Assembly: GCA_903813345.2 (NCBI GenBank)
Contig: CAIIXF020000002.1
Location: forward strand, 2,954,001 to 3,018,000
Length of the DNA stretch: 64,000 nt
Direction: 5' to 3'
From: Owenia fusiformis
Lineage: Eukaryota; Annelida; Polychaeta; Sabellida; Oweniidae
In this document: positions 8,934-60,100 of the stretch, one piece after another
Layout of the letters: each line of letters begins with the position of its first letter
Numbering within the stretch: position 1 is the stretch's first letter
Translations under genes and position numbers: made by a program
Notes under the pieces: model-generated
Databases searched by the model: none
What the model saw: the letters and a program-made list of their open reading frames with translations, nothing else
Told to the model about the DNA's origin: nothing

Positions 8934-11095
8934 AGGAAAGCTTAGCACGACTATTTGATATTTACGTATACCCCGTACTATAATCTACCTACTCATCAAA
9001 TATGTGCTGTTTTGGCCCACTTTGATACAATATTTGGGTCCCGGGATTTGGGATTTGATGCTATTTACGTATACCTCGTACGTTACTCTACCTACTTATA
9101 AAATATATGCTGCTTTGGCCAATTTTGGTGGGCAATATTTGGGTCTTGTAATTGTTAAAAATAAAAACATTTTACGTCTCTCAAATCTGGCGATTAAACG
9201 TGTCTGTTGCAACGGCCATCTTGGACTGTTGCTCTATTTGATTTTTATGTCATATTAAAACCCCGAAATGTTTCTCGGAAAGTGATGTTGGTAGTGTATT
9301 TGGCGTTCATACATTACAAATTGAAATAAAGAAAATATGTGGACTAATTGCTGCTGTAAGAATCATATTTTTGTTTGTTTGTGATATGAAGAACCAGTTC
9401 ATTGCAAGCAACATGTACAATTTACCTTCTTTTTTTTAAATCGCCACAATGGCATTATATAAGAATAGGGGGCAGGTGGAAGTAGAAGTGGCAGAACAGG
9501 CAGGGTCTTGGACTAGGGCAGGTGTGACGGGACTATAGGATACTAGAGATGGATAAGAAGGAGGGAATTAGCTATAATTGTCTTTGATAAAATTAACAAT
9601 GAGAAGTAGTATTTTGGAATTTACATGTATGTTTAATTTGGGAATTCCTGTTTTTACCTTCCAATACATTCCTTACAATCTCAAATATATTATATTCCAA
9701 ATTAAAAAGATCCACAATACATTTATAAATTGGTGAAGTTAATAAAGATTCAATGTGCCAAAATGGGGAAAACTTGTTTAAATTCTCCCAAATAATGAAA
9801 AATGGTAACCATAAAAAATAGAACAATAATACATTTAAATGCATTATTGTAGAAATTTTTAGTTTTCCTCAAATACAGTATTTTAGATAATATATATACG
9901 AGTATATAAAGGAATCATATAAGCTAAAAATATTCTAAAATTGATTTTTTTCGTTAAGATCATAATCATAAGGATGCAATTTCAATAACGAAACGTATCT
10001 GGTTATGGTCTGTTACATGTAAAGTCAATATCAACACACGACTTTCTCCCATTAGCGTCCTGGTCTACCTTTGTGACGAAAGTCGGTGAGATTTGGTACT
10101 TATAAATTGTCAACACCTGCACAACTGTTCCACAACTAGTTACTTTGACGGAACGTCAATGTAACAAAATGGATGAACTTCCTGGTTACGAGTTTTTTCT
10201 TTTCTCGATTTAAACCTACTTATAAGTCAAGCTGCAGATTATAATTTGGCACAAAGCTAAAAAATATAGTTTAGTTTTAATACGTTTCCTCGATTTGGAA
10301 ATTGTTTTGTAACTGAGGTTGCAATTCATATATCTAGCCCGTCGCTTTTGTTACATTGACGAACGTCCGTTACATTACCAATGTATGTTACTTTGACGAC
10401 TTACGTCAATGTAAAAAAGCGATGGTCTAAATGCATGAATTTCAGCTTTATCTAAAAATCAAATTCCAAACCGAGAGTATCTCTAAAACCTGGACTATAT
10501 TGCCTAACTTTGTGCCAAATGATAATCTGCAAGATGACTTATAAGTAGGTTTAAATCGATATAGAGACATATAAAACTGTTTTATATGTCTCTGATCAAT
10601 AGAAGGCAGGCACAGAAAGTACAAAAAATGTACTGTATAAGTGGTATTTAATCTGAGTGGTTAATTTGCCAAATAGTTAAATGTTATCATTTTCCTAATT
10701 TTAATTTTCCTAATTACAAGAAACTTCCTATTAGATAACATTATGAAGATAATATTTCCAACGTTTGATTTTCCGAACTTGGCAAATATTGGACAATAGG
10801 CAAAGTAGGTTGCTTGGAATAGATTAGGTGAAGGCGAAATAACTATAGAGCCTTGTTTACTATATATCATTTGTAAAGCTGTTGGTATTTGATGTCACTA
10901 TAAATCTGTCTATAATAGTGATAAATGAAAAATTAACGAAATATCAAATTGTTAATCAATTTTGCAGCCAGATTTAAATGTTACAAATTGAAATCCCGTA
11001 CAATTTTTAGATTGAGATCAAAACAGAAATGTACACTTTTAAAAGGTATGGCTGATTTTAAAGTGAATTTTTACTCCATGTATTCATAACATAAT
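8934..11095. other. intergenic region with a ~0.1-kb tandem duplication
   Basis: Just after the sulfotransferase stop codon, about 100 bases (from about 8957) are repeated in diverged form from about 9059: both copies contain ATTTACGTATACC, CTACCTACT and GCTGxTTTGGCC. The AATAAA at 9325-9330 probably ends the upstream transcript. From 9340 to 11095 I see AT-rich sequence and one fold-back element (annotated separately), and no gene. Confidence 0.5.
10206..10563. mobile_element. fold-back element (imperfect palindrome)
   Basis: The left end CGATTTAAACCTACTTATAA near 10207 returns as its reverse complement near 10544-10563. The adjacent bases pair too: GCAGATTATAATTTGGCACAAAG on the left against CTTTGTGCCAAATGATAATCTGC on the right in diverged form. 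The centre carries several copies of a GTTAC-x-TTGACG-like motif. There is no coding capacity. Target duplications are not clear. Confidence 0.6.
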
Positions 11096-12592
11096 ATGTA
11101 TAGATATGCGCCATGGCAGTGTTTTCGAAGTTCTGCGTCAAGAAGAACGTTTATTCTTGGAGCCGCCTTTTGTGTTTTGACCCTGGGACTCGTCAACAAA
11201 ACGAATCCTTATATTGAACTTCGAAGGAATGATCGACAAAATGGCCCCATAGATATTCAACAAAACGGCCCCACAAACGTGCGAAATACCAATGATAAAG
11301 ACGTACGCAACACCCTTACCTCAAACCTAAATCTGACAGCTATTTCTGGATTTGATATCCAGGAAAACAATGATCTACCTTATGGTGCGTCAATGCATAT
11401 AAACTTACCAAACAAAGAAGATGGCTTAGAAAATGACGTCGATGCACTAAGAAAATTCATAAATCTATCTCACAAAACTGATGTATTTCCGGAAGGAAAA
11501 AATGAATCCAAGAACTCTATTGATAATGTCAGTGATCAAACGAAAAGTACACCTAGCCAAGATAATGACCATAATGTAAATGATAAAAAGGCTCCAATTG
11601 TTCCTGAATTTTCCGATGATGAACCTCTGACCCCTGAGCGAATTATGGAAGTGTATACCATGCCCCCTGACTCATCACAACTGGGGGGAAATCATATTCT
11701 AAAAGAAATGTTCTATCCGAGTACTAGGCGAGATCTCAATGACCTTGTTACACGGCAGAGAGATTTAAACTTGAATCAGGAATTCAGAGATAGGCGTAAA
11801 CCTGATGTTATTCTAGGTGGGATTTTTAAAAGTGGAACAACAACCGCGGCACATTGGATACAGGAACATCCTGACATTATACACAGTGACGCGACTACGG
11901 GATATTACACCAAGGACTGGATGTACGCAAAAGGTCCAGAGTGGCACATTGACACAATTGAAAGTCTCGCTAAGACTATGAAAGAAAGAGTCATATTTGA
12001 ACGATGTTCTGGATGTTTCACAAGACATCCTGCACGCGAAAGAATCAAGGCCGCATACCCGGATGATGACGTCAAGATCATATTCGTAGCACGTGACCCG
12101 ATTGATCGATTAGTTTCGGACTACCTTCAAAATATAGTTTTAAAGGAAACCATGAATATAACTTTTAGAAATTCATATTTCTTTCAAAATGGCTCTGTCA
12201 ATCCTCTCGTTACTGCTACTCAGAGAAGTATTTACGTTAGGCATATGGTACTTTGGCTGCAAATGTTCCCCAGACCAAATTTGCTTTTTATAGATGGAGA
12301 CTCCTTCGCAAAAACACCTTGGATTGAAATGGAAAAAATTGAAAAATTCATAGGAGTAAAACGATTTTTTACGAAAGAAAAATTTACTGTAAACCCAAAT
12401 AATCCAGATTTCTTTTGTATACAAACTTTGAAACACCCATACCCTTTGTGTATGGGGTCGTCGAAAGGTCGAAGGCATCCCACAATAGACGCAGATCTTG
12501 TGAATTCTTTGAAAGATTTTTTCAGATCGTATAATAAACAATTAAGTGTTTTGCTGAACCAGACATTCTTGTGGAATAATAAATATATATAA
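11096..12592 (+). CDS. heparan sulfate 3-O-sulfotransferase-like carbohydrate sulfotransferase (intronless)
   Basis: A single 498-residue frame. A hydrophobic stretch at about residues 19-34 after basic residues looks like a type II Golgi anchor, followed by a ~200-residue low-complexity stem rich in Asn, Asp and Lys. The catalytic part starts near residue 236 with GGIFKSGTTT (5'-phosphosulfate loop, about 241-250). It has VARDPIDRLVSDY near residue 330 (3'-phosphate binding, Arg and Ser in place) and ends with the cysteine pair and SKGRRHP segment near 440-461 that is typical of HS3ST and NDST-type sulfotransferase domains (PF00685). The expected reaction is PAPS-dependent sulfation of a glycosaminoglycan in the Golgi lumen. 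The exact position sulfated cannot be told, and the divergence from vertebrate HS3STs is large. The frame is uninterrupted, with an AATAAA overlapping the stop codon. A single exon could mean an old retrocopy or the intron-poor state common in this family. Confidence 0.85.
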   Translation: MYRYAPWQCFRSSASRRTFILGAAFCVLTLGLVNKTNPYIELRRNDRQNGPIDIQQNGPTNVRNTNDKDVRNTLTSNLNLTAISGFDIQENNDLPYGASMHINLPNKEDGLENDVDALRKFINLSHKTDVFPEGKNESKNSIDNVSDQTKSTPSQDNDHNVNDKKAPIVPEFSDDEPLTPERIMEVYTMPPDSSQLGGNHILKEMFYPSTRRDLNDLVTRQRDLNLNQEFRDRRKPDVILGGIFKSGTTTAAHWIQEHPDIIHSDATTGYYTKDWMYAKGPEWHIDTIESLAKTMKERVIFERCSGCFTRHPARERIKAAYPDDDVKIIFVARDPIDRLVSDYLQNIVLKETMNITFRNSYFFQNGSVNPLVTATQRSIYVRHMVLWLQMFPRPNLLFIDGDSFAKTPWIEMEKIEKFIGVKRFFTKEKFTVNPNNPDFFCIQTLKHPYPLCMGSSKGRRHPTIDADLVNSLKDFFRSYNKQLSVLLNQTFLWNNKYI

Positions 12593-14985: not shown

Positions 14986-17900
14986 TCAGCCTCCCTGAAA
15001 AAAAAACATTAATTTTATTTAATAAAATAACATAACAATGCACGACATGGTAACCATGACACATATGACATAACAATGAATTGCATGTTTGTAAATTTTA
15101 CACAAAATGGCACACTGATGAACAAAATGACATAATGATGAAAGACTCCATAACAAATATGAAGCTTAACATATTTTGGGTCAGAAATATGTATAAATCC
15201 ATTTAAAAAGATTGTGAAAACATGGTAGGGTATAATTACTGTAATTCCAATTTCTACATTTTCAATTTTATAAACCACTCAATCATTTTATGATTTTTCT
15301 TCGTTTCAATCATATGTCTATGTCAATAATCAACAAAAGGCTAATAAGCCCATATAAAGCAGATATATAATTTAACAGTGATAGAATTTGAATAGAATAT
15401 AATTCAAAACCTTAACATTTAAAAATAGATCTATAACATTGGTCTATAACATCCTGACTAAAGGTCAAACGACTCCAACATAAAGTTATTACCTTATATA
15501 AAAACAACTATTCTTACCCAAAGTGTGGTATGGTAGTGTGTATTTGAAATAAGGTAAACCAAGGTTAGAGAATGGTATTTAGAATGGTATTTAGAATGAA
15601 CTCACTCCTTTATTTACATCGATCCCAATGTCGGAGAACTTTGTCATTCCTTTGCCAGAAGCCACTGTCTGCGCTTTCTGTAAAGAAAATATAATAAATC
15701 AATTGAACACTGTTTTCTCGAATTTCATAAGAAAACATTCCTGACGAAATTTTCTAGAATACAGCATTTTACAAGTGATCAACTGATCAATGTTTGTTTG
15801 TTTTATCTTTTATTAAAAATATTTTATTCGTCTATATATTACATTGATACAGTTTAACGAAACGGATCGGACAAAAGGCTTTCGCCTATTCTAAGTTTTC
15901 TCCTTTGGTTGTCCTTTGTTTGTTTGTTTGTTTGTTTGTTTTTTGTTTGTTTAAGTGTTTTCTACATGTTACAATAAAAAAAATTCCAACCAATTATTCT
16001 ACAATAAAATATTTTACAATTAATCCATATCACAGGGATTTATACAATTCTACAAGAAAACATGAAATAAACAATAAGGGGGCAACAAAGGGATCATATC
16101 TACGTATGGAATGTATATTTCACATAGCATTGTTTGCTTTTAGACAGGTTCCAATTCAAATAATTCAAGTTTTTGAGGCATTTTTTAGAAAAAGCAACAG
16201 ACCTATTTTTACTAGATCAGTTTTTCATGCTGATAAAGATATTAAAAGATGACAACTCAACGGGGTGGTCACGACACTAAATTTTGGCATTTTTACCCCC
16301 CTAGGAAAATATTCTAGGGGGTACTATGAAACTAGTTCATAACTCAAAGGATATGTGAGCTATTGTTCTGAGTTGTACACCATACATTGCTAGTACAAAT
16401 ATGAATACTATCTTAAAGTTATGGGTTGATACCCTTATTGGTCTCAGAAAAATATAAAAAACAGGAAAAAGATACGCAATTTTTGTCTTGCCAATTTTAT
16501 ATTTGTAGCTTCAAGCACAATATGAGAGCTTTAACAGCTCAAAGTAGTATTTTAAAAACATTTCCAAGCTATGTGTGGTATTGTAATACATCTATTTTAG
16601 TTATGAAGTACTATTTTGTAATTTTAATATGACTTTATAGTGCCCTACCCCTGGAAAATTGAAGAAAGTGAATGTGGTGAATTTTATCATTTTGCAGCAT
16701 TAAGTTAGAAACATGTATTGATAGACACCAAATCAATAAATTCATACCATCATCAAATGTTAGGTGACATTCTAATTCATTTATTACTAGAATATAGGAC
16801 TTAAGATATTTTATATGTAAGTTTTCAATTAAGTACATGTATCATAATGAAATCTAGTGTAATCACATACTAGAGAGGTTGGCATACAGTCTGGACATTG
16901 ACATAAAGTCTAAACATTATAATCATCAATTGATCTCATTTGAGCAACTAGACTATGGTGGTCATCATGCACAAGTAATGTACAGTAGAACCTGCTAAGT
17001 GGAACACCTCTGTAAGTGGAACACCTCCCAAGTGGAACGCCTTTTCAAAGTCCTGTTTTAAAAACCCATTGACTTAATGTTAATTGAACCTCTGTAAGTG
17101 GAACACCTCCAAACATGAACAGTGAACACCCCATATTGAAAAATTAACCTGCTAAGTGGAACAGTCAATTTCCATAGATTTCAATATTGATATATGTAAA
17201 CAGAATTAATCTCCCTCAATGATATCTGGGTATGAAAACAGGTAATACTGTGATAATTGGCAAATTAGGATTTTAATGGATTAACCTAATGGTCAACATG
17301 TGATGCAACCAACAATTAATTTGATAATCAGCAAATTAGGATTTCATAAGATTTTCATTCAGAAAATTGGATTAACCTCCTGTAGAACTGGACACGTGAT
17401 GCTACCACTAATTGATATCCCTTGCTGTTTGTTTCAAACTTAATAAGTAAGATTAAAAATGTCATTTAAAAACAATTGAATTATTAGCAGTAGGAACAAG
17501 TCTTTAAAACTTAATTGCCTAATCCTTGTACCTGAGACTGGCACAATTAGGAGGATTAAGAATGTCAGAAAACATTTTTGGCAGAATGAGGAGGATTAAG
17601 AATGTCAGATACCTTTTTGAGTAAAATAAATGGATTATTAATGGTATACTGGTATACCTGCCCTGTAATGAAGGGAGAATCATATTTCCAATGATACATA
17701 TAAATCCTATATTTGATCTTGTATGTTCCCTGCGAACCCAAAACCTCCGTAAGTGGAACACCTTCTAAGTGGAACGCTTTGTGGCAGAATGGAGTGTTCC
17801 ACTTACACAGGTTCTACTGTATTTACATAATAATGTTATAAAGGAGCATGTAGGTTATCGCAAACAACTTCAGACAATTCTAACTTGAATTATGAATATT

Positions 17901-20900
17901 TTCTGACCATGAACATGGGTATATCTTTTAGATCTATTCATTATCTTCAAGAAAAGTAAATATAATGATTAATCAGACCTAAGTGATATTAAAGGGAATG
18001 GCCCAATCAACATACTTTTTACTAAAAATGGTGACCTAATTTTCACCAAAGATGCAACCTTTAATTATATTGTTGAATGCATAATTAGAATATGCTTTGA
18101 GACATGTTCTATTTCCTAAGAGGAAAAGTGGATTGCTCCTGGGACTTTAAAGACACTGAATTTGGATGACCAAAATGAACTGAAACCAATGGATAGCATG
18201 AATTATTTCAAAGGGGAAATAACATGGGGAACACTAATCTTAGGGGAATTCGGTTTTCTTTTCAAGAGCTATTTGATACATTAAAATTAAGAAAAGTAAT
18301 GCATTAAACATTAATAAAATGATAGCATTTTTGGTGAAAATGAGGTCAACAACTTTGAAAAAATATATTGATGGGTTGATTGCTAGTGAAATATCTCCGA
18401 GTCCGATTGACTTTATTATCCCTGTATACCCTGACTTCATGGTCAGAAAATAGTCATAATCAAAGATATAACTGTCTGAAATTGTTTGTGATAACTTACC
18501 TGAACCTTTCCAGGTCAAATCAGGAGTGACAAAATTATTTCCACCAAATTTTTGACATGTCTTCAAATACGATAATATTTTCTTCATAAGATAGAGTGTC
18601 ACTTGTGAAATTTATTGATTGACCTGAGATCGTACCATATCTTTATGACATAGAAGCGAAATAGCCATATTTAATTTTAATGATGTTTGTTTAATTGTTG
18701 TTTGCCACTTTTCGACAATTGTCAAAATTTGGGGGTTTTGGGGAGGGGTACAATTAGGTTAAAAAATTCACCTGATTCAGACTATCCTTAAATGAGCACT
18801 GATTCACCCGAGAGCATAACTTTTTCAAAACATGTAAGTGTTATTTTTGGACCACTCACATTAATGTTTCGTCTAATTTTCCCTCAGAGTTTCATCATCA
18901 TTGTCCAAATCGTATGCCATGTTTGTTGAGATATATGAATGTTCATTATTAAAATCTTGGCTTCATTTGCAGTTGGAAAGGATTCGGCATTAGGTGTTAT
19001 AAGTCCCAGAGCACGATAAATAAAAAAATAACAACAAAATGACATAGAACTGATAGATGTTTTCTCCTGTGCGTGTCAGCCTTGGTCTACCAAATTGCTA
19101 TTCAGTAGGAAGAAACTCATTTTTCAGTTTCCATTTTAATTTCCTGACAAATAGGGCGATCATCCCAGGATTTTTTCTATGATCTATGTGTCGCCATAGC
19201 AACTTCTGTTTTAGAGAAAAATAGAACAATAGAAAAGATTACTTTACCATGATTTTAATCATCCCACATTGTAGACATATTTAGAATTAAAAATATGAAG
19301 AGAATGACAAAACCTCTTAAAACACATTTCTTAGGAAACAAATAGTGTCGTATTCTTGTTACTATGGCAACAGAGTTTTTTCTTTTTGTCATTTTTGTCA
19401 TACAGATTACCTATCATACCAGGACCAAATCCTGAAAATTTGAATTCAGTATTCTTCATTAGTATCTTAGATATATAGGTTTATTATAGTGTCCCCTGCA
19501 GATTTTATCGGATTATATAAGGAAAATGCTCTGAAGAGGGTTGCCCAAGGATGCCACTTAACAGTTCTGGTATTTTTGAGGTCCCAACCCTCTATTCATG
19601 GGAATAGTTAACCATTGTAAAGCTACTCATGGTTAACTGACAGAATTGATTGTATCTTCAACTAAGAAGACAATAAAATGTTAAAACCAGAAGAAAACCA
19701 CACCAACTTTCTTCTATTTACCAGGGGTAGGGCACTATAAAGTCATATTAAAATTACAAAATAGTACTTCATCACTATAATAGATGTATTACAATATCAC
19801 ATATACCTTGGGAATGTTGTTAGAATACTACTTTGAGCTGTTTAAGTTATCATATTTTGCTTGAAGCTACAAATATAAAATAAGCAAGAAAAAATGACAA
19901 AAATTGCATATTTTTTTCTAATTAATTGTATTTTTCCGAAACCAACAAAGATATCAACCTATAACTTTAAGGTAGTATTCATCTCTGTACTAACAATGTA
20001 TGCTGTAGAACTTAGAACAATGGTTTATATATCCTTTGAGTTATGAACTAATATTATAGTACCCCCTAAAATAATTTCACAGGGGGGTAAAAACGCTAAA
20101 ATTCAGTGTCGTGACCACCCCGTTGAGCTGTCATCTTTTAATATCTTTATCAGCATGAAAAACTGATCCAGAAAAAATAGGTCTGTTGCTTTTTCTAAAA
20201 AATGCCTCAAAAACCCTATCCCTTGAGATATTCTGAAATTGGAACCTGTCTATTTCACTTATGCCATTCTTAGCAACCACCCCATTCACTATTAAATCAC
20301 TCGACAACTTGCTATACCTGGCAAAGTTATTAAACTGATACTAATTTAACTAGTTCACTTTAACTGGTTCACAGCAAAAACAGATACTAGAATAGTTTAA
20401 CTTTTCGTGTAAGTCTCCTAGGGTTTTTAACATTATTTGCTATTTATCATTATCAAAACCGATACGACAAAAACAGTAATCATCCTGATGATCGATACCG
20501 CTCGTAATTGCCGTTATTTGCATGAGGGCTCGAGCTTCGAGCACTAGCGGTATCCCTATTACAAATACGGTAGCACGCGTACGTGGAAGTCGATGTTTAT
20601 TTGTTTTTTGTTTGTTTGTTCGTTTTATGAAAGGATCAATACAGTTCAATTGAGCATTTTGGGAAATATATCACGCGACCTCGAGTAAAGTATATCTCCA
20701 TAAGGCAATGTTTGTTTATAAAATGATTAATACAATACAATTTAATATTTTGAAAAAATTCTGTTCAACATGCTAAATCAAACGTAAGGTTAATGCTTTA
20801 TTTTGTGTCCTTATGACTTAAAATCGCAGACAAACAACGTCCCCGTAATATAAAAGCCAATGTTGATCTGTATGAAATTTGATCAGCGCAATTCAAATGA

Positions 20901-23900
20901 TTATGCTGAGACATAAAACACTTAATCATATTTAAAGCAAGTTGAAAATCAAAAAATGCTTTTTTTTTCCTTTACAAGCCTTATACAAATACATCCCTCG
21001 GCTATCTGCGACAGATGTCAATGAATGATGTCATTTGTTAAGTGCAGCGCCTGCTAAATGAAAGTGTGTACACCTCTGTGTCGCTTCATAATTGAGTTTG
21101 CTACTCAAATTACTCAGCAGCTTAATCCCATTTCAATACCAATTTCAGTTATATAAAAACACGATTTCAAAAAATCGATAGAGGTAAGTGAGTCGCACAC
21201 TTGTAAGTGGAAATATAGTAGCAGCTGCTTTTTGGTCAGCTTATCGCTTTTCATTTGTGACAAAGATCCCATTCAAAAATATAACATGATTTTATTCTCT
21301 CCATTGTGAGACCTCGATTAATATGCAATTTTGATATTTTATAATGATAAAAAAGCAGCTGTCCATGATTGCATCATGGATTAGCAATCTATGTAAAATA
21401 GCACTATCTGGTAAGTCACACAAATGGTTACAAAAGATGCTAATCGCAAATACCGACAATGTCACTGAACGTTGGTCACAAAAACAATGGTTCTAGAACA
21501 ACACCATCAGGTTTTGGCTTCGAAGGATTCGTATCCTTTGTACTTAACTTTTGTTTGTATTATACTTAACTTACAATAGACAGATGCCTGGGCCAGTTCT
21601 TTGTTGATATGAAACAAAGAATTTGTATTATTACCCATAAATTTCCCGAGCGATTTTATAAACAAATAAAGCTTCGGATAGTATCATTGTGTCAGCAGAA
21701 TGGAACGTTCTTAAATTGTGACGTTAATAGACTTCATGATTTGAAATACAAAATTGTTGCGAAAAAAGTTCATTTGCTACATCAGGACTGTGGGTGCTCC
21801 TTTGATATTTCTTTTTTTTGCATTAATACACATACATCCTGAGAGATTTAATGAACTAATAGCGTACATAATTTGGGGAATCCACTAAGAGTTTGGAGGT
21901 TCCTCCAAATACATGTACGTATTCTAAACAAGAAGTTGTTGCCCATATGTCAAGGAAATATATTATGTGTGCTTCCTTAAAGCGCGGGTATATTTATATT
22001 TATACTAAAAGAACCTTTACATAAAAACGATCATATTGGAATTTTTAGCAAAGACATCCGATACAACACACATATACCTTCACAATATCTCAAAAGTGTG
22101 TTTCTTGTAATAACAGAAGTCTACCCGTTTTACAAAGAGTAAAGTGTAATATTCAATGTCCAAAACGTAGGTCCGACAATCCTCCATCGCAAACACATCC
22201 ACACTCTCTGAACATGTGTATTTCACAAACCATAAGGGAATTTCATTGGCTGGTGACATCATACATTCTTTAAGACAGACTGTTTGCCATTTTTGGCAAT
22301 GAAATCTTCTGGCACGCGATACAAACGAGATGTTTAGCATCTCATTGGCTTAACTGCCCTTTTTTGTCGTGTATTAACAGTCAGGTGTATTCCTACATAC
22401 AAATGAAACTTAATACTTTAAGGTGCACTTTGTGCTGATTTTCATACATTCTTTTCATGAGTAAACGGGGATTCCCCAAAGCGTGGGAACTATTGAACAG
22501 CTGCTTTCAGAAATGTCAACATCTGGCTCAAACGATGCAATGAGAAGTTCAGAGTTAAAGAATGACATGCAAACGTATTTGAGAATGAAAGCAGTTTATA
22601 CGTTGTATTGAAATTGAAGTATTGACGCTTATAGACCCTCTTATGGTAAGTCTCATAAGGTTTTGGGAGAATTGGAAACTGTATAAAAAGGACACCATGG
22701 CAAGGCCCTGCGTTGGTAAGTTACTTTAGAATGATTTTTGACAAATCTGGAATGATGCTAAATATCATAGTCAATTGATAAATAAATATTAATTTTGATT
22801 ATGTATATATAATGTATAAGGCTACCACTTTTATTATTATCTAATCATTTGGTTTTTTATCATTATTTCTTATTCATCCAGGTTTCAATCTGCTTTGTAT
22901 TGTTTTTAAGGTAAAAAGGCTGACATTATTTTTTTTTCACTTCACATTCATGGTTCAATCTCCTTTGTTTTCCCAGTTATAAGCTATCATTATTTCTTAT
23001 TCACTCAGGTTCAATCTGCTTTGTTTTCACAGTAATAAGGCTATCATTATTTCTTATTCACTCAGGTTCAATCTGCTTTGTTTTCACAGTAATAAGGCTA
23101 TCATTATTTCTTATTCACTCAGGTTCAATCTGCTTTGTTTTCACAGTAATAAGGCTATCATTATTTCTTATTCACTCAGGGTTCAATCAGCTTTGTTTTC
23201 ACAGTAATACGGCTATGATTATTTCTTATTCACTCAGGTTCAATCTGCTTTGTTCTCACAGTAATAAGGCTATCATTATTTCTTATTCACTCAGGGTTCA
23301 ATCTGCTTTGTTCTCACAGTAATACGGCTATCATTATTTCTTATTCACTCAGGTTCAATCTGCTTTGTTTTCACAGTAATACGGCTATCATTATTTCTTA
23401 TTCACTCAGGTTCAATCTGCTTTGTTTTCACAGTAATACGGCTATCATTATTTATTTTTCACTCAGGGTTCAATCTGCTTTGTTATCACAGTAATAAGGC
23501 TATCATTATTTCTTATTCACTCAGGTTCAATCTGCTTTGTTTTCACAGTAATAAGGCTATCATTATTGCTTATTCAATCAGGTTCAATCTGCTTTGTTTT
23601 CACAGTAATAAGGCTATCATTATTTATTTTTCACTCAGGGTTCAATCTGCTTTGTTTTCACAGTAATAAGGCTATCATTATTTATTTTTCACTTCACATT
23701 CATGGTTCAATCTCCTTTGTTTTCCCAGTTATAAGCTATCATTATTTCTTATTCACTCAGGTTCAATCTGCTTTGTTTTCACAGTAATAAGGCTATCATT
23801 ATTTCTTATTCACTCAGGTTCAATCTGCTTTGTTTTCACAGTAATAAGGCTATCATTATTTCTTATTCACTCAGGTTCAATCTGCTTTGTTTTCACAGTA

Positions 23901-26900
23901 ATAAGGCTATCATTATTTCTTATTCACTCAGGTTCAATCTGCTTTGTTTTCACAGTAATAAGGCTATCATTATTTCTTATTCACTCAGGGTTCAATCTGC
24001 TGTGTTTTCACAGTAATACGGCTATCATTATTTCTTATTCACTCAGGGTTCAATTTGCTTTTTTTTACAGTAATAAGGCTATCATTATTTGTTATTCACT
24101 CAGGGTTCAATTTGCTTTGTTTTCACAGTAATAAGGCTATCATTATTTCTTATTCATTCAGAGTTCAATTTGCTTTGTTTTCACAGTAATGAGGCTATCA
24201 TTATTTCTTATTCACTCAGGGTTCAATTTGCTTTGTTTTCACAGTTATAAGCTATCATTATTTCTTATTCACTCAGGTTCAATCTGCTTTGTTTTCACAG
24301 TTATAAGCTATCATTATTTCTTATTCACTCAGGGTTCAATCTGCTTTGTTTTCACAGTAATAAGGGTATCATTATTTCTTATTCACTCAGGTTCAATCTG
24401 CTTTGTTTTCACAGTAATAAGGCTATCATTATTTCTTATTCACTCAGGTTCAATCTGCTTTGTTTTCACAGTAATACGGCTATCATTATTTCTTATTCAC
24501 TCAGGTTCAATCTGCTTTGTTTTCACAGTAATACGGCTATCATTATTTCTTATTCACTCAGGTTCAATCTGCTTTGTTTTCACAGTAATAAGGCTATCAT
24601 TATTTCTTATTCACTCAGGTTCAATCTGCTTTGTTTTCACAGTAATAAGGGTATCATTATTTCTTATTCACTCAGGTTCAATCTGCTTTGTTTTCACAGT
24701 AATAAGGCTATCATTATTTCTTATTCACTCAGGTTCAATCTGCTTTGTTTTCACAGTAATAAGGGTATCATTATTTCTTATTCACTCAGGTTCAATCTGC
24801 TTTGTTTTCACAGTAATAAGGCTATCATTTTTTCTTATTCACTCAGGTTCAATCTGCTTTGTTTTCACAGTAATAAGGCTATCATTATTTCTTATTCACT
24901 CAGGTTCAATCTGCTTTGTTTTCACAGTAATAAGGGTATCATTATTTCTTATTCACTCAGGTTCAATCTGCTTTGTTTTCACAATAATAAGGCTATCATT
25001 TTTTCTTATTCATTCAGGGTTCAATCTGCTTTGTTTTCACAGTAATAAGGCTATCATTATTTCTTATTCACTCAGGTTCAATCTGCTTTGTTTTCACAGT
25101 AATAAGGCTATCATTATTTCTTATTCATTCAGGGTTCAATCTGCTTTGTTTTCACAGTAATACGGCTATCATTATTTCTTATTCACTCAGGGTTCAATCT
25201 GCTTTGTTTTCACAGTAATAAGGCTATCATTATTTATTTTTCACTTCACATTCATGGTTCAATCTCCTTTGTTTTCCCAGTTATAAGCTATCATTATTTC
25301 TTATTCACTCAGGTTCAATCTGCTTTGTTTTCACAGTAATAAGGCTATCATTATTTCTTATTCATTCAGGGTTCAATCTGCTTTGTTCTCACAGTAATAC
25401 GGCTATCATTATTTCTTATTCACTCAGGTTCAATTTGTTTTGTTTTCACAGTTATAAGCTATCATTATTTCTTATTCACTCGGGTTCAATCTGCTTTGTT
25501 TTCACAGTAATAAGGCTATCATTATTTCTTATTTACTCAGATTCAATCTGCTTTGTTTTCACAGTAATACGGCTATCATTATTTCTTATTCACTCAGGGT
25601 TCAATCTGCTTTGTTTTCACAGTAATACGGCTATCATTATTTCTTATTCACTCAGGTTCAATCTGCTTTGTTCTCACAGTAATAAGGCTATCATTATTTC
25701 TTATTCACTCGGGTTCAATCTGCTTTGTTTTCACAGTAATAAGGCTATCATTATTTCTTATTTACTCAGGTTCAATCTGCTTTGTTTTCACAGTAATACG
25801 GCTATCATTGTTTCTTATTCACTCAGGGTTCAATCTGCTTTGTTTTCACAGTAATACGGCTATCATTATTTCTTATTCACTCAGGTTCAATCTGCTTTGT
25901 TTTCACAGTAATTTTATAAGGCTATCATTATTTCTTATTCACTCAGGTTCAATCTGCTTTGTTTTCACAGTAATACAGCTATCATTATTTCTTATTCACT
26001 CAGGTTCAATCTGCTTTGTTTTCACAGTAATATGGCTATCATTATTTCTTATTCACTCAGGTTCAATCTGCTTTGTTTTCACAGTAATACGGCTATCATT
26101 ATTTCTTATTCATTTCGGGGTGAGTCTAGTTTGTTTTCACAGTAATACGGCTATCATTATTTCTTATTCATTTCGGGGTGAGTCTATTTTGTTTTCACAG
26201 TTATTAGGCTATTATTAGTATTCAGTCATGTTCTACTTTGTTCACATATTCCATTGCAAGTTTGCGTTTCTTTGTTTCCAGAAGAACCTCTCCCTAATAT
26301 GATAATAATTGTTGTGTTATTATGGCCACTGCAGCTTCTTCAAAACTTATGTCGAGAATGTCACCTTAGTGTTCGACAAGTCATCAATATCCCATGTGGC
26401 CATGCTGACTTTTGTGTTGGATGTTTCAACCAACACTATGCACATGCACCAGCAATCTGTACGACATGTGGGTCATTGATTAATGGAAATATAATGATAC
26501 ATCACATCAACTAGTGGACATGACATCATTGTGTTATGACAATGTATGATTTAACTAATGCTTATTTGTATTTACCGTACTGCTGGCAAATGACACATTA
26601 TGAAAGAAAAGAAATGGGTTCTGGCTAAGCACAATGCCACATTAAGGGATACTAATGTTCAGATTACAAGTTCAGATTACACCCAGTGGACATGTCAATG
26701 TTTGGTTTCAAGCTGACACTCTTGTCCCACATGGAGAAACAGACACACTCATATACCAAACCCAAGGGATTAGAGCAGTGACTTCTTCAAAAATTCAAAA
26801 GTACTGAATTTACCCTGAACACTTATGTGGCAAATGTTGAAGCTAGTCACCTGTGTGGACACATTGATTAATATGGGTGTATCAACATTGCTTCTATGCA

Positions 26901-29900
26901 GGTAATATCAGCTGAGAGATGCGCTTCATGAAGCACACCAAAAATGCTTTGCTTAATTTTTTACAGTTTTTCAGATGCGCTTATTCATTAGAGGACATAT
27001 CAACTTGGACATATGACGTATACACTGTATATTAATCTGAAGGGAGTTCACTGGGGAACCAGATCCTCATTTCACCTGTTTTGGCCAGAATATATAAAAA
27101 TGTCACCATTTTGGCAGAGTACGAATAGAAGTTGTACATGGTGACATGTAATTTTAATAATTTCATCAAGGTACATCACAATGTTGCTCTTGTGTGCAGG
27201 TAGAGCACTGATGTCTTTATTCTACCCTTAGTTTCTTAGACGATGCCTCATAGCAGATCAAAGTATAATATATACATGTATGTACATAGATTAATTTATT
27301 ATCAGTGCAGTGTATTATACAAATAGGGTAATCGTAGGTAAGGCCTACAAATATTTCATTCTATTCAAAGGTATTCCCCATCATAGAACAAAATATTTGT
27401 TACTGTGATTGTTTGCTGTAATGTTACATTGCTCATTGTGTGTTAAATATGGAGGGAAATATTTTGTCCAACAGTTGTATACTCAATCACTCTAGTGACA
27501 ATGATTGATGCTGGTGATATGAACTTAGTTAAATACATTAATGCTTAGTGTCACTGGGACAACTGAGTGATAACAGTAGCTCAAATGGGTGAGCTAGAAA
27601 TATCAGGTGTAATATCATATTTTTATGACATGCTTTGTACGTTTTGCATTATTTTAGTTGAGAAATAAACAAAACTGATCACTGACTTTGTTTTTCTTAT
27701 GATTTTCAGCAGAATGCAAATTACTACTCCTGCAGCTTAACAATTCTGACAAGACTGTTCAAGATTTTCATGTTTTTTTCCAACTTCTCCAACGGACTTT
27801 AAATGCAATTGGCTTTTTAGGCTGCTATTTGAATGAATCACTGTAATTGTAATTTCCAAGGGCTCTGTTTCATTGCTTTCTAATAATTATGCAAGTCCAA
27901 CTATGCACGTTGAACACGGTTAATTTGAACTTTAATTCTACCAGATTTTTGAAAATTAAACTGCTCCATTTTTCTTCAAACTTGTTCCATTAAAACCAAA
28001 ACAAAAATGCCTTTCTGTTGGTACACTGTAATCCTTGAGCTACAATTTTTCAAACATCTGGTAGGTAAATTAACAGTTTTCCAAAATGCATAGTTGGACC
28101 CCCGTGATAATGTTATTTTGATCTTTGTCAAGTTTCACTCTTTGAGTTGGAGATAAATTCTCTCACATGATCCTTTGATCTAAGCTTAGCCAATCAGGAT
28201 TCAGTCAATAAAATTCCAGCGGGTACTATTCATATCTAAATGAGTTTCACACAAAAAAGAAGGTTAACATGGTAGTCGACAGCCGAAAGTTCCATTCATG
28301 AATTATTATAATATTCAAATTAAAACTACTATTGAAAGTATCTTTGAAAGTTATGGCAGCTAGTTTAGGAGCCATTTGGATGTTATCAGCATTAAAATTC
28401 ATGAAAAAATGGTTCACAAAAATATGATTGCCACAATTTAACAATTCCTATTACTAATGTTCATTTAATAATTATAATATACTCTCCCTTGAGTCATTCC
28501 AATTTGTTCTATTTTAATATTGGCCATTTGGAGTTATTTGGTGTACATGTGATTAAGGTTGGTAAAGCAGAAGACAAGTTGGAATTTTTTTGATTGATAA
28601 ACTGTTTTGACCAATAGATCTGAAATTTTGATGACACATTCTCATTGGATACTTACAGATGATTTACTCTCTCTAGTCTTTGTCTCTCGTCTGTCAGCCT
28701 CAATCTGAAAAGAATATAATCAATGGCGTCACATCACTATTTATGTATTCATACACAATATCATTCTAACAGGGCAGGGTGTTATATATGACCAAATAAT
28801 CAATTATTAAAATTACTCAGAAATACCCCATGAGCATTTATAATGACAGAATTCAGAGTCTAGAGGGACCAGCTTTCAACTTAGGCGAAGATGGAATAGG
28901 GAATGAATATGATGGTGCCTCCCTCTATTTGTTAAACAAGATGTCATTAAAAATTGAGGCGCTTTCAGTTGATATACATAATACTATATATAGGTAATAC
29001 TAAATAGGTATGGATACAAAATGTGTACCAGTGTATATATGAACGAAGATGGAATAGAAAATGAATATGATGGTGCTGCCCTCTAATTGTAAAACAAGAT
29101 ATCATTAAAAATTGAGGGACTTTCAGTTGATAAACATATTACTATATCAAGGTAATACTAAATAGGTGGATACAAAATGTGTACCAGTGTATATATGAAT
29201 GAAGATGGAATAGGGAATGAATATGATGGTGCTGCCCTCTAATTGTAAAACAAGATATCATTGAAAATTGAGGGACTTTCAGTTGATATACATATTACTA
29301 TATAAAGGTAATAATAAATAGATGGATACAAAATGTGTACCAGTGTATATATGAACGAAGATGGAATAAGGAATGAATATGATGGTGCTGCCCTCTATTT
29401 GTAAAACAAGATATCATCAAAAATTGAGGTACTTTCAGTTGATATACATATTACTATATAAAGGTAATACTAAATAGGTGGATACAAAATGTGTACCAGT
29501 GTATATATGAATAAAGATGGAATAGGGAATGAATATGATGGTGCTGCCCTCTATTTGTAAAACAAGATATCATTAAAAATTGAGGCGCTTTCAGTTGATA
29601 TACATAATACTATATCTAGGTAATACTAAATACAAGGTGGATACAAAATGTGTACCAGTGTATATATGAACGAAGATGGAATAGGGAATGAATATGATGG
29701 TGCCTCCCTCTATTTGTTAAACAAGATATCATTAAAAATTGAGGGACTTTCAGTTGATATACATATTACTATATCAAGGTAATACTAAATAGGTATGGAT
29801 ACAAAATGTGTACCAGTGTATATATGAATGAAGATGGAATAAGGAATGAATATGATGGTGCTGCCCTCTATTTGTAAAACAAGATATAATTAAAAATTGA

Positions 29901-32900
29901 GGCGCTTTCAGTTGATATACATAATACTATATCAAGGTAATACTAAATAGGTGGATACAAAATGTGTACCAGTGTATATATGAATAAAGATGGAATAAGG
30001 AATGAATATGATGGTGCCTCCCTCTATTTGTTAAACAAGATATCATTAAAAATTGAGGGACTCAGTTGATATACATATTACTATATCAAGGTAATACTAA
30101 ATAGGTATGGATACAAAATGTGTACCAGTGTATATATGAACGAAGTTGGAATAGAAAATGAATATGAGATGACACTGCCCTCTATTTGTAAAACAAGGTT
30201 TCATTAAAAATTGAGGGACTTTTAGTTGATATACATAATACTATAGAGGTAATAGGTATGGATACAAAATGTGTACCAATGTATATATGAATGAAGATGG
30301 AATAGGGAATGAATATGAGATGACGCTGCCCTCTATTTGTAAAACAAGATATCATTAAAAATTGAGGGACTTTCAGTTGATATATAAATGTTAACTGTTT
30401 CACTTTGAGCTGAGGTAAGGGATGTCAATATTTAACACAAAGGAGGAGGGAAATTAGCGCAACAGATTTTAGACAGTCATATGTTGGATTTTGGCCATTT
30501 ACTGGGGATTTATTCAGACAGGTGCATATGCACTACCTCCATGAAAATCTCTTCTAGAGATGATAAAATAATTTCGACTTTGAGACAGGGTAGATGCAAA
30601 CAACCCACCCACATGTTTTTTCTGAAACGTTTTCCAGATTTTTTTTGAGGGACTTTCAGTTGATATATAAATGTTTAATGTTTCACTTTGAGCTGAGGTA
30701 AGGGATGTCAATATTTAACACAAAGGAGGAGGGAAATTAGCGCAACAGATTTTAGACAGTCATATGTTGGATTTTGGCCATTTACTGGGGATTTATTCAA
30801 ACAGGTGCATATGCACTACCTCCAGGAAAATCTCTTCTAGAGATGATAAAATAATTTCGACTTTGAGACAGGGTAGATGCAAACAACCAACCCACATGTT
30901 TTTTCTGAAACGTTTTCCAGATTTTCAACCCCTGCCATCCCTGCTTTTTTAATTTTTCTTGCATTATTATGTTGCGTTTTGACACACAGTTAATCTCTTA
31001 AAAGGAATAAGTTTGGTCACCCATAATGGGTATCTTTAAAACCCCTGAAGGAATCACTTATTCCTTTAAAGTCGCTAACTATGTGTCAAAACGCATTATA
31101 TTGATGCAAGAAAAATTAATAAAAATTAATTATTTTATCATCTCTAGAAGTGCTTTACCTGGAGGTAATGCATTGGCCTAACATATGCAATTCTTTAAAT
31201 CCTCAGAAAATGGCCAAAATCCAACATATGACTGTCCAAAATCTGTTGGGCTAATTTCCCTCCTTAGTGCAGTCAGAATGTGGGTTTCGGCGTGCGTTCA
31301 GAGGGATTTTATGGGACATAATTTTTCATATTACTACTATGATTATACATATTTGTATGGATTATTAGATCTTAGTTTTTCAGCTTTTAGATTTTGTGGC
31401 CATTTTACCCCCCATGGGCTAAAATTTGGACCCCTACTATAAAATTGGGCAAGAACTCAAAAAATACTCAGTGGAATGTTTAAAAATTACCAAGTTATAT
31501 TGGTATAGGCTAACTAAATATATGATAAAAATTTCATGTCACATGGTTAAGTGGTTGCCATGAAAATGGATAAAACATGCCCTTTGGGTGTCAATTTTCA
31601 AGCCAATTTTTCAGGACTGACAGAGTAATTTCATGCATATTTTGTCACCAATGTGTTAGGAAGGGTTAAAATGTAAATAGAAAACTTCTATAATATATAA
31701 GAAATAATTGTATGTAAAAATCAGTCCACAAAACCTCAGATTTTGGCCTTGTATTGGTCCATGACTTATACAGGGGTCTATTTCATAGACTCGAGCTCCC
31801 ACATTGGATGGATGCTATAACTTTTGAAATAAGGGAGATACAGGTCTCATTTTTTCAGATCTTCATAAATGGTTGGTTTTAAATACTAAAATGTATGTTT
31901 GGAGCTGGTATATGATTGGTTGCCATGGTAACCAGGGTTTTAAGGAAATCCTGACCCCGACATTGGATGGATGTTATAAATTTTGAAATAAGGGAGATTC
32001 ATGTCTCATTTTTTCAGATTTTTGACAATGATTGATTTAAAGTATTGATTTAGACTTTAGGAGCTGAAATTTGATTGGTTACCATGGAAATCAAGGTTTT
32101 GTTGAAATTCAGACCTCCACAATTTATGAACACTATAACTCTTAAATACAGCCAGATAAGATATAATCTTTTCAGATGTAAGATAATAATAATATGTGTG
32201 TATTGTATTAGACTTTGGAAGCTAGGATTTATTTGTCTACCATGGTAACCATGTTTCATTGTCATGGTAACTGCTGTTTTCGTTTTCAGATTCACCTTTA
32301 TTCTAGATAGGTCAATACATGACATAAAATACCCAAATGCTCAAAGTTACCATTGTATTCTTAATTTTGGGATTTTTTTAAATTTTATATGATTTACATG
32401 CTCATGACTCAATAATACTATAGAGATGCAAACATTGTTTGGCTCATAAGATATCAAATACTAGTAAACAGTTTTTACATGTATGTCTGACAATATTGCC
32501 TTATTCCATACTACTAGTTCTTACAAAAGTTCTGACTCCTAATTTGTTCATTTGTACTCATCATTACTGTTTTCATTAACACAATTTCCTCTTAACATCA
32601 ATTTCTGTTGGAATGAAGGATTGTTTTGACCATTCTGGAGATAAGGATCCTCAGGGGATATAGTCCATTCATGCAGTATTGGACTTGGCAGAATGGGTTA
32701 AGACTGGTCCCTGTAGGTTCACTGTATATAAAATTTGGCTGGGATCCTAGGCTGAACCCTCAAATATCAATATGTTCCCAACCAATCTGTCAAATTTGAA
32801 TGTGTTTCGATATCAACCAAAAGAATGCCCAAAAGCCATACCAAATGGCCAAATATAGGACCAGTGCCATACCAAATATCCAGATATGAAAACATGGCCA

Positions 32901-35900
32901 TTCAAAATTTCTAATGCCTCGAGAAGAAGGCATATCATTGAGGAAAACAACCAAAAATAACCTCACATTAATGATATACTAAATCTATGACATACATGTA
33001 CAACAAGTGAGGGGCAACATGTTTTTCACGACCATTCCCAAATCCAACCATTGCCATACCTCTCAAGTCATAATTTGGAGAGCATTCTCATACCAGATCC
33101 TAAAATTTGGGTCCATTGCCATATCAAATGTGAAAAAGCACCCCACCTGAGCTAAGGATCCCCTCAAGATTTATATACAGTGGACTCCTGGGAGACAGGG
33201 GGTAATGTTTCCACTTCCAAATATAAGTTTTATTATCCATCCTCTTCAAATGTTATAATGAGCAATCATTAAAAGGTGGAAGAGTTCATCATTTAATTTA
33301 TTGCATTATATTAGCTGCTATGAAAGCAGTGAAGGACCAATCTTGAAAGGTGGGAAGAGTTGAAATGTCAACACCTCCATAAGTGAGGGCAGCACTGTTC
33401 TGTTTTGGAGAATATCTTATGTGAAACAGCTCATATCGTTATCTATTGATGTAAGTTACATATATATTTTTGTAATTCTGCTGTACTTTTACTGGTGAAC
33501 AATTCAACTTTGGATTTTATTGTGTCAGGAATTTCTATATTGATTCCTTTTATGAAGAAAACAACCTTAAGAACCTCAACTGATGTGAACTCTGTTCCAT
33601 TACATGTCAGAAGCTCAACCAAACCTCTGTAGCTGCAAACCTAGAACCAAGTACTGAGTGAAGCTATATTAGCCGTCAATGCGTTTACTGGATCAGATTC
33701 GTACAGTGCCTTTCTGAACAAAGGAAAAGTAAATCAACTGAAACGGAAGACAAGCAATTCTTAAAGTTGTTTTCTTCAATAGGAAACAATATAGGAATTC
33801 CTGCTACCATAAAATCGAAAGTTGAATTGTCCACCTGCAAAAATACAGCAGAAATAGAAAAATAACTGCCACTAATAGATTTACGAGCTGTTTCCCATGA
33901 GATATAGAACAAAACAGAAGAGTGCTGCCCTCACTTATGAAGGTGTTGACATTTTCTTTCACATTTGAAGAGGGTTAATTATCAAACCTATGTATTTACA
34001 CATTCCCACCAGCTTAAACCCAGCTCTACCATTATGCCCAACACTGCATGAATGAACTGTGAATTCCCTGACGAATCTTTAACACAAGAATGGTCAAAGG
34101 AATCCTTCTTTCCAATAGAAACTGTTGATATTTTTAATTAAGAGGCAATTGTGGAAGATGAAAACGATAATGGTGAGTAAAAACAAGTTGGGAGTCAGAA
34201 TATGTGTGAGAACTAGTAGAATGGAATGAGGCTATACTGTCAGACATACAGGATAAATTGCTGAAATTAAGAGCAAAATGATAATTTTGAGCATTTTGGT
34301 ATAACATGTTGTGAATTGATCATTCTCAAATGAAGGTAAGACTGAAATAAAAAATTAAGGGTACCATGACGACAAAACATGGTTACCATGGCAATCAAGT
34401 AAATGCTAAGCTACAAAGTCTAATTCAATACACAAATCTAATTAATTTTTAAGATCTGAAATGATGATATCTGTATCTGCTTAAATTCAAACGTTAAAGC
34501 ATTTATCAATTGAGGAGGTCCAAATTTCAATAAAACTCTAGTTACCATGGTAACCAATCAAATTTCAGCTCTCAAAGTCTAATTTAATATTTATAATCAA
34601 TCATTGTCTAAGATCTGAAATAATGAGACATGTATCTCCCTTATTTCAAAAGTTATAGCATCCATCCAATGTGGGGGTCAGAATTTCCCTAAACCCCTGG
34701 TTACCATGGCAACCAATCATATGTCAGTTCCCAAAATAGAATAAAATACTTAAAACTAACCATTTATGAAGATCTGAAAAAATGAGACCTGTATCCCCAT
34801 TATTTCAAAAGTTATAGCATCCATCCAATGTGGGAGCTCGAGTCTATGAAAAAGACCCCTGTATATGTCATGGACCAATACAAGGCCAAAATCTGAGGTT
34901 TTGTGGTCTGATCTTTACATACAATTGTTGCTAATATATTATAGAAGTTTTCTATTTACATTTTAACCCTTCCTAACACATTGGTGACAAAATATGCATG
35001 AAATTACTCTGTCAGTCCTGAAAAATTGGCCTGAAAATTGACACCCAAAGAGCATGTTTTATACATTTCCATGGCAACCACTTAACCATGTGACATGAAA
35101 TTTTTATCATATATTCAGTTAGCCTATATCAATATAACTTAGTAATTTGGAAACATTCCATTGAGTATTTTTTGAGTTCTTGCCCAATTTTATAGTAGGG
35201 GTCCAAATTTTAGCCCATGGGGGGTAAAATGGCCACAAAATCTAAAAGCTGAAAAACTAAGATCTAATAATCCATACAAATATGTATAATCATAGTAGTA
35301 ACATGAAAAATCATGTCCCATAAAATCCCTCCGAACGCACGCCGAAACCCACATTCTGACTGCACTACCTCCTTTTAATCCCAAATACAATAAAACAATC
35401 ACAACAAACATAATCTTTTTTTGGGAATGGCTGGATTTATATCCAAAGTGGATTCTCAAACTGATTTCCATCAATGTGCCAAGATTAATTGAGACGTACC
35501 TGTTCTCTTATTCTTTTCTTCTCCTCCATTTGTCTCTTGTAAGCTTCTAGTTGTTTCTTCCTACCCTCATCTAAGACCTTTGCTTTCTTAGAGTCCTGAA
35601 ATATTTCATATGCATAATTTTGCACTCATCTTATAAAATTTATCCAATGCTTCTTTGATCTTTGCTCTCTTGAATCTTGCAATGTTTTATTTGCATATAG
35701 ATCTTGCAGTCATATGACATGTACACAGGCAATATAATTTGGCACCGTTTCGGCATCGAAAGAATTTGGCGCTGTTCCGGCACCGTTTCGACAACGAAAC
35801 CTTTTGACACCAAAATTTGCCACCAGACTAGTCAGTCCGAAACGGCACCGAAATTTGGCACCGAAAAGGCGTCGAAAATCAGATTGCATTTTGGGGGTGT

Positions 35901-45079: not shown

Positions 45080-45328
45080 CTATTTGAAAAGCTTTTTTCC
45101 CGTTGTATTCGAAGCCATTGTTGGGGCTTCCGTTGGCGTTGTATACGGACCCATTGTTGTAACTGCTTTACAGTAGCACTTAACCTTTCCGCTGCAGTTT
45201 GGATCTTCTGGACACAGGCATTCTGTACCTTCTTCACATACACCCTTCGCTTTAAAGTCACCATTCTTTTTCACTTCTCCACATTTTTCACCCTCGCTTT
45301 TCTCTTTGCTGCTGCTACTACCGCTAGA
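45080..45328 (-). CDS. terminal exon of a small secreted Cys-rich protein gene (copy 1, 5' exon not found)
   Basis: After a CTTCTTATAG acceptor, 82 codons run to TAG. They encode an acidic/basic Ser-rich start, a compact domain with seven cysteines (C-x12-C-x5-C-x-C-x6-C-x5-C-x-C), then a short Thr/Pro tail with PTEAPTMASNTT once and a GKKLFK end. I do not recognise the domain. The copy at 48598-49182 is clearly homologous, and that gene has a signal-peptide exon upstream, so an extracellular protein is likely. For this copy I found no matching signal-peptide exon between 45330 and 48600: homology with copy 2 is lost beyond about 47750. It may therefore use a distant first exon or be a duplicate cut off from its start. 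The reading frame itself is intact. A 2-kb fold-back sits in the upstream intron homologous to that of copy 2. Confidence 0.55.
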   Translation of the reverse strand, partial: SSGSSSSKEKSEGEKCGEVKKNGDFKAKGVCEEGTECLCPEDPNCSGKVKCYCKAVTTMGPYTTPTEAPTMASNTTGKKLFK

Positions 45329-45923
45329 CTATAAGAAGAAATACAATAAACAGTTTTTCATTAACGGTATATTTATGTTTGGACTCTATGAATGTACGTT
45401 CGACCACACTCAAATATACCGGGAGGAAGAATAGTAATAGTTTCAGAGTATGGTACCTGAGGGTAAGTTAGTTTCAGATTGATTGAATTCTGTCTTGGTT
45501 TTCATGTTAAGGCAGCAATTCTGGGGTGCATTTTGTCTGAACGGCCTGAATTCTTAGTTATTTCAGGGTATCCTTATAAAAAGCTTATCCTGTTAAACTC
45601 AAACGTATACGTGTGAATGGCACGTTAAAATTGATTTATTTTTGTAGTTCAATCCACAAAAATTCAGATACTGGTAAAATGATTATTTGTGAAAATGTCA
45701 AAGATTATGTATGACTGATTTTGGCTTGTCATGGTCATGATCTGTATACTGCGTGCGTCATGAAAAATTTCTAAATTTTCTCTGCTTGAGACAGCACCGC
45801 TGAAAATACAATATCTTTAATACCATACAATATGTACCCTTCAAATGGTTTTAACACAATTCCATCAATTAAATGTAGTTATCTCTAGGAGAAGCAAGAC
45901 ATGTCTACCTTGAATAATAAAGC

Positions 45924-47218: not shown

Positions 47219-47523
47219 CAAGGAGGATTGGCTCCCAGGATCGAAACTCGATATTTTCCAACAATGAAAACGTCGAAATGTCGTTATTTTCTGAAATTAA
47301 AACCGACTATAAATTCAAAATAAACAGTTCAAAAGATTCGAACCAATATCTCGATCGTTTCTTGTGAGTTTTGGAATTTTTCGTTTGGAAATAAGACCAA
47401 AATTCACGATTTAAATGTTGAAGTGAACAAAATGGCGGCTGTTTGAATTCGAATTTTGTATTACGACATACCCATATATGGGACAGAATATCGGTGGTGC
47501 ACTCTGGGAGCCAATCCTCCTTG
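47219..47523. mobile_element. 305-bp MITE, copy A, with 9-bp target duplication
   Basis: The ends are CAAGGAGGATTGGCTCCCAG and its exact inverted copy. ACATTATAT flanks both sides (47210-47218 and 47524-47532). The body is nearly identical to copy B at 49814-50118, including length; I see one difference (GATCGTTTC here, GATCATTTC there). A 9-bp duplication fits Mutator-like or Merlin-type elements. The 48-codon frame inside is shared by both copies and has no recognisable product. Confidence 0.92.
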
Positions 47524-59822: not shown

Positions 59823-60100
59823 CTACTGTTTTAAATTTTTGATTTGCCTATTCGCGAGAAGCTCTAGAAGTAGGCATTGCGTATTGGTGGGTATTGGTTA
59901 TAAGTACAGTTACAAATTGGATTAAGGTTGGTTGACTAAGTTATATGACGATCATGTGTCGGTTAAATCAAAATCTTATTTTATTCTATTTTGATATATA
60001 AAGGGATCTTCAACACCAATATATTGGTCATTTGAAAAATCAGCAAACAAACACGTGTAGGTCCTGTGATCCAGTCTGATTCAATGCAACACAACATCAA

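Follow-up and report, generated by a model that had tools for sequence, protein, structure and literature searches.

The window analysed here is a stretch of 64,000 nucleotides from the polychaete Owenia fusiformis. Its + strand carries a 57-bp minisatellite array (22858–26247), closely followed by a putative exon that encodes a RING finger (26282–26514), with a C3HC4 pattern at 26350–26469 and a stop codon at 26512–26514. Two further elements would make a two-exon gene of this arrangement, with the array in its intron: a putative exon 1 running from an ATG to the donor TTG|GTAAGT (22697–22715), and a proposed acceptor, TTTGTTTCCAG (26271–26281), which would make 26282 the first exonic base. 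Other repeats occur along the window. Inverted repeat pairs lie at 16141–16678 and 19697–20252 (86% identical over 556 aligned columns) and at 31265–32367 and 34264–35367 (1.1 kb, 88.6% identical, with 159-bp tandem units in each arm). The interval 28887–30925 opens with 9.6 tandem copies of a 156-bp unit (to 30384), followed by two copies of a 283-bp unit. Direct repeats are found at 47219–47523 and 49814–50118 (99.7% identical over 305 bases), and at 45101–45636 and 48955–49488 (92% identity); this last pair lies near similar - strand ORFs, the second of which contains a 36-bp tandem repeat. Scans of the window returned 0 Rfam matches and 0 tRNAs, the tRNA tool being one that states the bacterial code.

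Tandem Repeats Finder placed the array at 22952–26217 (period 57, 56.7 copies, 93% matches), and a wrap-around alignment resolved 58 full monomers starting at 22858 and a partial monomer up to 26217. The first-pass annotation had counted about 58 tandem 57-bp monomers, and this count was correct. Being made of head-to-tail units within the range of about 10–100 bp, the array is a minisatellite. Monomer lengths are mostly 57 bp (32 monomers) or 58 bp (16), the others being of 56 bp (five), 65 bp (three), 54 bp (one) and 62 bp (one). There are 37 distinct monomer sequences, and 11 of the 58 are exact copies of the consensus. Divergence is concentrated in the edge monomers 1, 2, 57, and 58, with 9 to 14 departures from the consensus, and in the inner 65-bp variants (monomers 15 and 42), with 11; the remaining 52 of the 58 have 0 to 5. 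Comparison of the monomers revealed a further 65-bp variant close to the 5' edge (22912–22976), with near copies at 23664–23728 and 25216–25280. The two inner copies are identical to each other, and a 56-bp monomer of one and the same type comes after both, so that a 121-bp block is identical at 23664 and 25216, which points to block copying inside the array. Both the near-uniform interior with its diverged exceptions and the copied block are what an ordinary minisatellite would be expected to display.

At its 3' end, the array continues past 26217 as a decayed monomer 59 (26201–26247, the end point 26247 being set by eye). Aligned end to end in register, this monomer scored 43, a value reached by 0 of 2000 shuffles, and 0 of 2000 shuffles did as well as its portion past 26217 taken on its own. 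In a free-register local test, by contrast, monomer 59 did not stand out, 45 of 300 shuffles being as good. The stretch separating the array from the proposed exon is consequently about 34 bases long, and not about 65 as had been claimed. No significant extra monomer was detected upstream of 22858, where 1848 of 2000 shuffles were as good in register and 53 of 300 in the local test. In a self-comparison, the segment 22600–22960 matched, among the matches listed, only itself and the array, and the segment 26200–26600 matched only itself and four short, weak stretches elsewhere (E 0.25 to 0.88). A 25-base monomer pattern had 0 matches in viral contigs.

The RING motif proposed for the downstream frame is borne out by several lines of evidence. 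All eight zinc ligands of the C3HC4 pattern, in the general RING spacing, are present, and this is the only match among the 645 ORFs of at least 40 aa. The mean number of matches was 0.000 in 200 shuffled ORF sets, and 1 of 20000 shuffles of the RING ORF itself produced one. Pfam family PF13920 matched the frame with an E value of 3.6e-6 and a score of 27.1 bits, just above the cut-off of 27.0. A sequence search against solved structures returned 20 sequences at E values up to 1, with a weak best match to the TRIM25 RING (E 0.0022). The single-sequence structure model of the 71 residues was too poor to use (mean pLDDT 55.6), and 0 of 40 candidate stretches were confirmed when the protein was compared with viral contigs. 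Codon usage gave no coding support to the exon, 82 of 180 ORFs scoring higher. This test has little power, however, because the three sulfotransferase ORFs used for training themselves score so low (0.07, 0.037, and -0.036 when each was left out in turn, with -0.071 for the RING exon).

A gene model in which the array fills an intron is possible. With generic metazoan donor and acceptor matrices, the donor at 22715 lies at the 99.07th percentile, and the acceptor at 26282 scores 11.86 bits (99.85th percentile among AG sites in the rest of the window). TTTGTTTCCAG occurs once on the + strand of the window. The 19-nt exon 1 joins the RING exon in frame, a match with a chance of one in three. An intron spanning 22716–26281 would be 3566 nt long, 3390 nt of it taken up by the array. 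Alternatively, there may be no such intron, the array being intergenic or part of another transcript, and the RING frame being an isolated exon spliced to a different set of upstream exons, an exon that begins at the in-frame ATG at 26299, or a gene remnant. We regard this set of alternatives as unlikely, although several observations are in its favour: exon 1 is only 19 nt long and depends on an ATG, a donor, and the one-in-three frame match; another in-frame ATG is available at 26299; the codon score of the RING exon is neutral; and its Pfam score barely passes the cut-off. Moreover, a TATA-like box at 22682 lies 15 bases upstream of the ATG at 22697. TATA boxes are expected about 25–30 bases from the start site, and so this box, as a core promoter, would place the start site beyond the ATG, which is hard to square with exon 1. 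On the other side, the donor and the acceptor both exceed the 99th percentile and join in frame, and the C3HC4 pattern is fully intact. The description of the RING gene as nested was not confirmed: among the ten larger stop-free ORFs submitted to Pfam, only sulfotransferase domains were matched above the cut-off, in three of the ten (8397–8930, 11090–12589, and 60080–61204), and a host gene may still lie in smaller ORFs or in frames with stops.

The monomers of the array carry acceptor-like motifs. TTCACTCAG is found exactly in 43 of the 58 monomers and TTTGTTTTCACAG in 46, with both together in 36; no exact + strand copy of either motif is present elsewhere in the window. Looser forms still ending in AG occur in 51 and 56 monomers, respectively. 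The motif pair thus exists and has the sense of the RING frame, but it is not carried by each monomer, as had been stated. The usual sites score 8.79 and 7.29 bits. Altogether, the + strand of the array harbors 106 acceptor-like AGs of at least 6 bits, or 31.4 per kb versus 2.7 per kb per strand outside, and its - strand harbors none. Sites of at least 10 bits number two in the array and 29 outside it, both strands combined; no array site attains 11 bits, and the top site within 22952–26217 scores 10.64, so that every array site is outscored by the acceptor at 26282. The array thus combines a high density of acceptor-like sites with intermediate strength. Of the 13 window arrays scored, hand-picked from 44 overlapping Tandem Repeats Finder rows, no other comes near its 31.8 sites per kb at the 6-bit threshold, the runner-up having 12.7; this unapproached density does not fit readily with a minisatellite like any other.

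The excess of acceptor motifs is clear against the rest of the window but only weak against the array's own base composition. When the monomer was shuffled circularly with its dinucleotides preserved, its best site was equalled in 980 of 5000 shuffles and its second-best in 250. With plain shuffles the counts were 320 and 46 of 5000, respectively, and with tandem arrays built from random 57-mers of the window they were 142 and 22 of 5000. Since a fair share of the dinucleotide shuffles equals the best monomer site, the T-rich make-up explains much of the acceptor likeness. The pyrimidine-rich strand accounts for much of the resemblance but not for all its rarity, two such sites per unit being infrequent both in plain shuffles and in random tandem 57-mers. 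A count of variable positions in the 52 inner monomers, which omits the divergent monomers 1, 2, 15, 42, 57, and 58, gave 7 of 20 and 8 of 20 for the two acceptor sites versus 7 of 17 elsewhere. Acceptor positions thus vary about as much as the others, and the motifs give no indication of being under selection.

Donor sites are distributed differently. The diverged monomers 57 and 58 (26085–26200) have common changes that turn the consensus TTCAAT into GTGAGT, and both consequently present a consensus donor, GGG|GTGAGT, with last exonic bases at 26119 and 26177 (11.16 bits, 99.8th percentile). A single ancestral change followed by one copying event would suffice to account for the two donors, and no function is drawn from them. 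Monomer 1 has a moderate donor at 22910 (AAGGTAAAA, 5.83 bits), and the donors that recur through the body of the array score low: AGGGTATCA (2.0 bits, 4 copies), ACAGTAATA (0.25, 47 copies), and CAGGTTCAA (-0.12, 33 copies). Given that good donors are absent except in monomers 57 and 58, with the moderate one in monomer 1, array acceptors would rarely define exons. Exon-defining pairs are nevertheless not wholly missing, and the consensus donors of the last two monomers make 35-nt pseudo-exons conceivable. Single pseudo-exons of this length, starting from the preceding acceptors (26085–26119 or 26143–26177), would break the RING frame; across the five pseudo-exon joins tried, three lose the RING and two keep it. 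Read-through into exon 2 from 100 array acceptors (CACAG, CTCAG, and CCCAG) keeps the RING frame in a single case.

These numbers bear on the idea that the array acts as a field of functional decoy acceptors. Such decoys would vie with 26282 and slow or redirect splicing; most redirected products would lose the RING frame, so that array length would tune output. The 106 sites in a single sense and the general loss of frame upon read-through or single pseudo-exon inclusion are consistent with such a role, and an intronic VNTR of the ABCA7 gene whose unit carries a splice motif is reported to alter splicing of that gene (PMC5954066). We nonetheless judge the decoy role improbable: the acceptor at 26282 is stronger than any array site, the motifs bear no sign of constraint, and two of the five pseudo-exon joins keep the frame. 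More speculative still is a length-variable splicing rheostat, in which about 100 one-sided acceptors and two donor monomers would let array length set the share of productive RING mRNA, with predicted 35-nt pseudo-exons that break the RING frame when singly included; we give this version, pseudo-exons included, very little credence.

It had also been suggested that the last decayed monomer merges into the acceptor region and that the intron's own 3' splice site may have given rise to the array. Monomer 59 is indeed present and in register, but the merging finds no support: the segment 26248–26281 resembles the monomer no better than shuffles do (for the first site 1104 of 2000 shuffles aligned as well, for the second 674 of 2000), and the local test of 26252–26290 gave 41 of 300 shuffles as good. 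Neither the RING exon (271 of 300 shuffles as good) nor the sequence preceding the proposed donor (143 of 300) is similar to the monomer beyond shuffles. As a further control, the proposed acceptor and 110 other strong acceptor-like sites in the window were matched to pieces of the monomer in four comparisons; 92, 29, 8, and 41 of these others equalled or surpassed it. The only suggestive comparison is that of 8 in 110, a 13-nt comparison in which CTTTGTTTCCAG is similar to CTTTGTTTTCACAG, and it is modest after four tries. All these alignments concern short stretches and have little power, and an old, decayed relation between the acceptor region and the monomer may exist. Overall, fixed- and free-register alignments, set against shuffles and against the other acceptor-like sites, leave an origin from the splice site unsupported, the proposed acceptor being not clearly closer to the monomer than other strong sites. 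Growth from the splice site, as in the amphioxus mirages, is thus quite improbable, even though monomer 59 ends within 34 bases of the exon.

Several known systems invite comparison. Amphioxus mirages are tandem duplications of exon-intron boundaries, described in globin, Adh3, TnC, and PGBD5 genes, and RT-PCR suggests that these genes are spliced normally (PMC3087553, PMC3902484). They share with the present array a minisatellite-like structure at a splice boundary, many units with AG or GT, and edge units that escape homogenization. By contrast, the 57-bp unit contains neither an exon edge nor the proposed acceptor and does not span a real exon-intron boundary, as far as alignments of short stretches to boundaries that are here only proposed can tell. 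The human IFI6 (G1P3, 6-16) minisatellite provides multiple splice donors (Turri 1995, via PMC4526556). Its tandem units resemble those described here in carrying a credible splice motif, but its donors are used in transcripts, whereas the acceptor-like motifs of the present array are predicted sites. The intronic VNTR of ABCA7 has a 25-bp unit that begins with a donor and is reported to affect splicing (PMC5954066). It likewise lies beside an exon, in an intron (putatively so in Owenia), with a splice motif in its unit, but the Owenia unit is a T-rich 57-mer whose acceptors are sequence-based predictions. The TSSK1-like gene of abalone also has a minisatellite in an intron (PMC6905558), as would this invertebrate gene if its putative intron exists, but the abalone unit is of 27 bp, and a splice motif is not among the features reported in the accessible text. 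Finally, introns can be gained by AGGT duplication, in which the GT of a unit with AG|GT works as donor (PMC4974935); CAG|GTTCAA is present 33 times in the array, with a donor score of -0.12 (61.7th percentile). The array most likely belongs to the general kind of known intronic VNTRs with splice motifs, without the boundary-spanning feature of the mirages. A literature search, in which subscription papers were poorly covered, did not retrieve a minisatellite of acceptor-like units before a RING exon.

The reading that we favour, with a probability of about 0.6, is that of a T-rich minisatellite expanded by local copying in non-coding DNA before a small RING exon, probably in the first intron of the gene. 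Growth would have proceeded by repeated local copying, through unequal exchange or replication slippage, and the acceptor-like motifs would for the most part follow from the pyrimidine richness of a strand that has a few AGs per unit. Were the region transcribed as proposed, the spliceosome would most likely use the stronger, last acceptor at 26282. In line with this reading, shuffles readily reproduce the best monomer site, acceptor positions are as variable as the rest of the monomer, the last acceptor beats every array site, the recurrent body donors score low, and amphioxus arrays that duplicate splice sites are reported to leave normal splicing undisturbed (PMC3087553, PMC3902484). The minisatellite is real, its earlier interpretation was over-read, and the array is best regarded as ordinary until RNA shows otherwise. 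If array acceptors were used, this locus would offer a natural test both of how the spliceosome selects an acceptor when about a hundred lookalikes are available and of whether gene output can be controlled by repeat length. It also carries a caution: T-rich tandem repeats can yield strong-looking acceptor motifs without selection.
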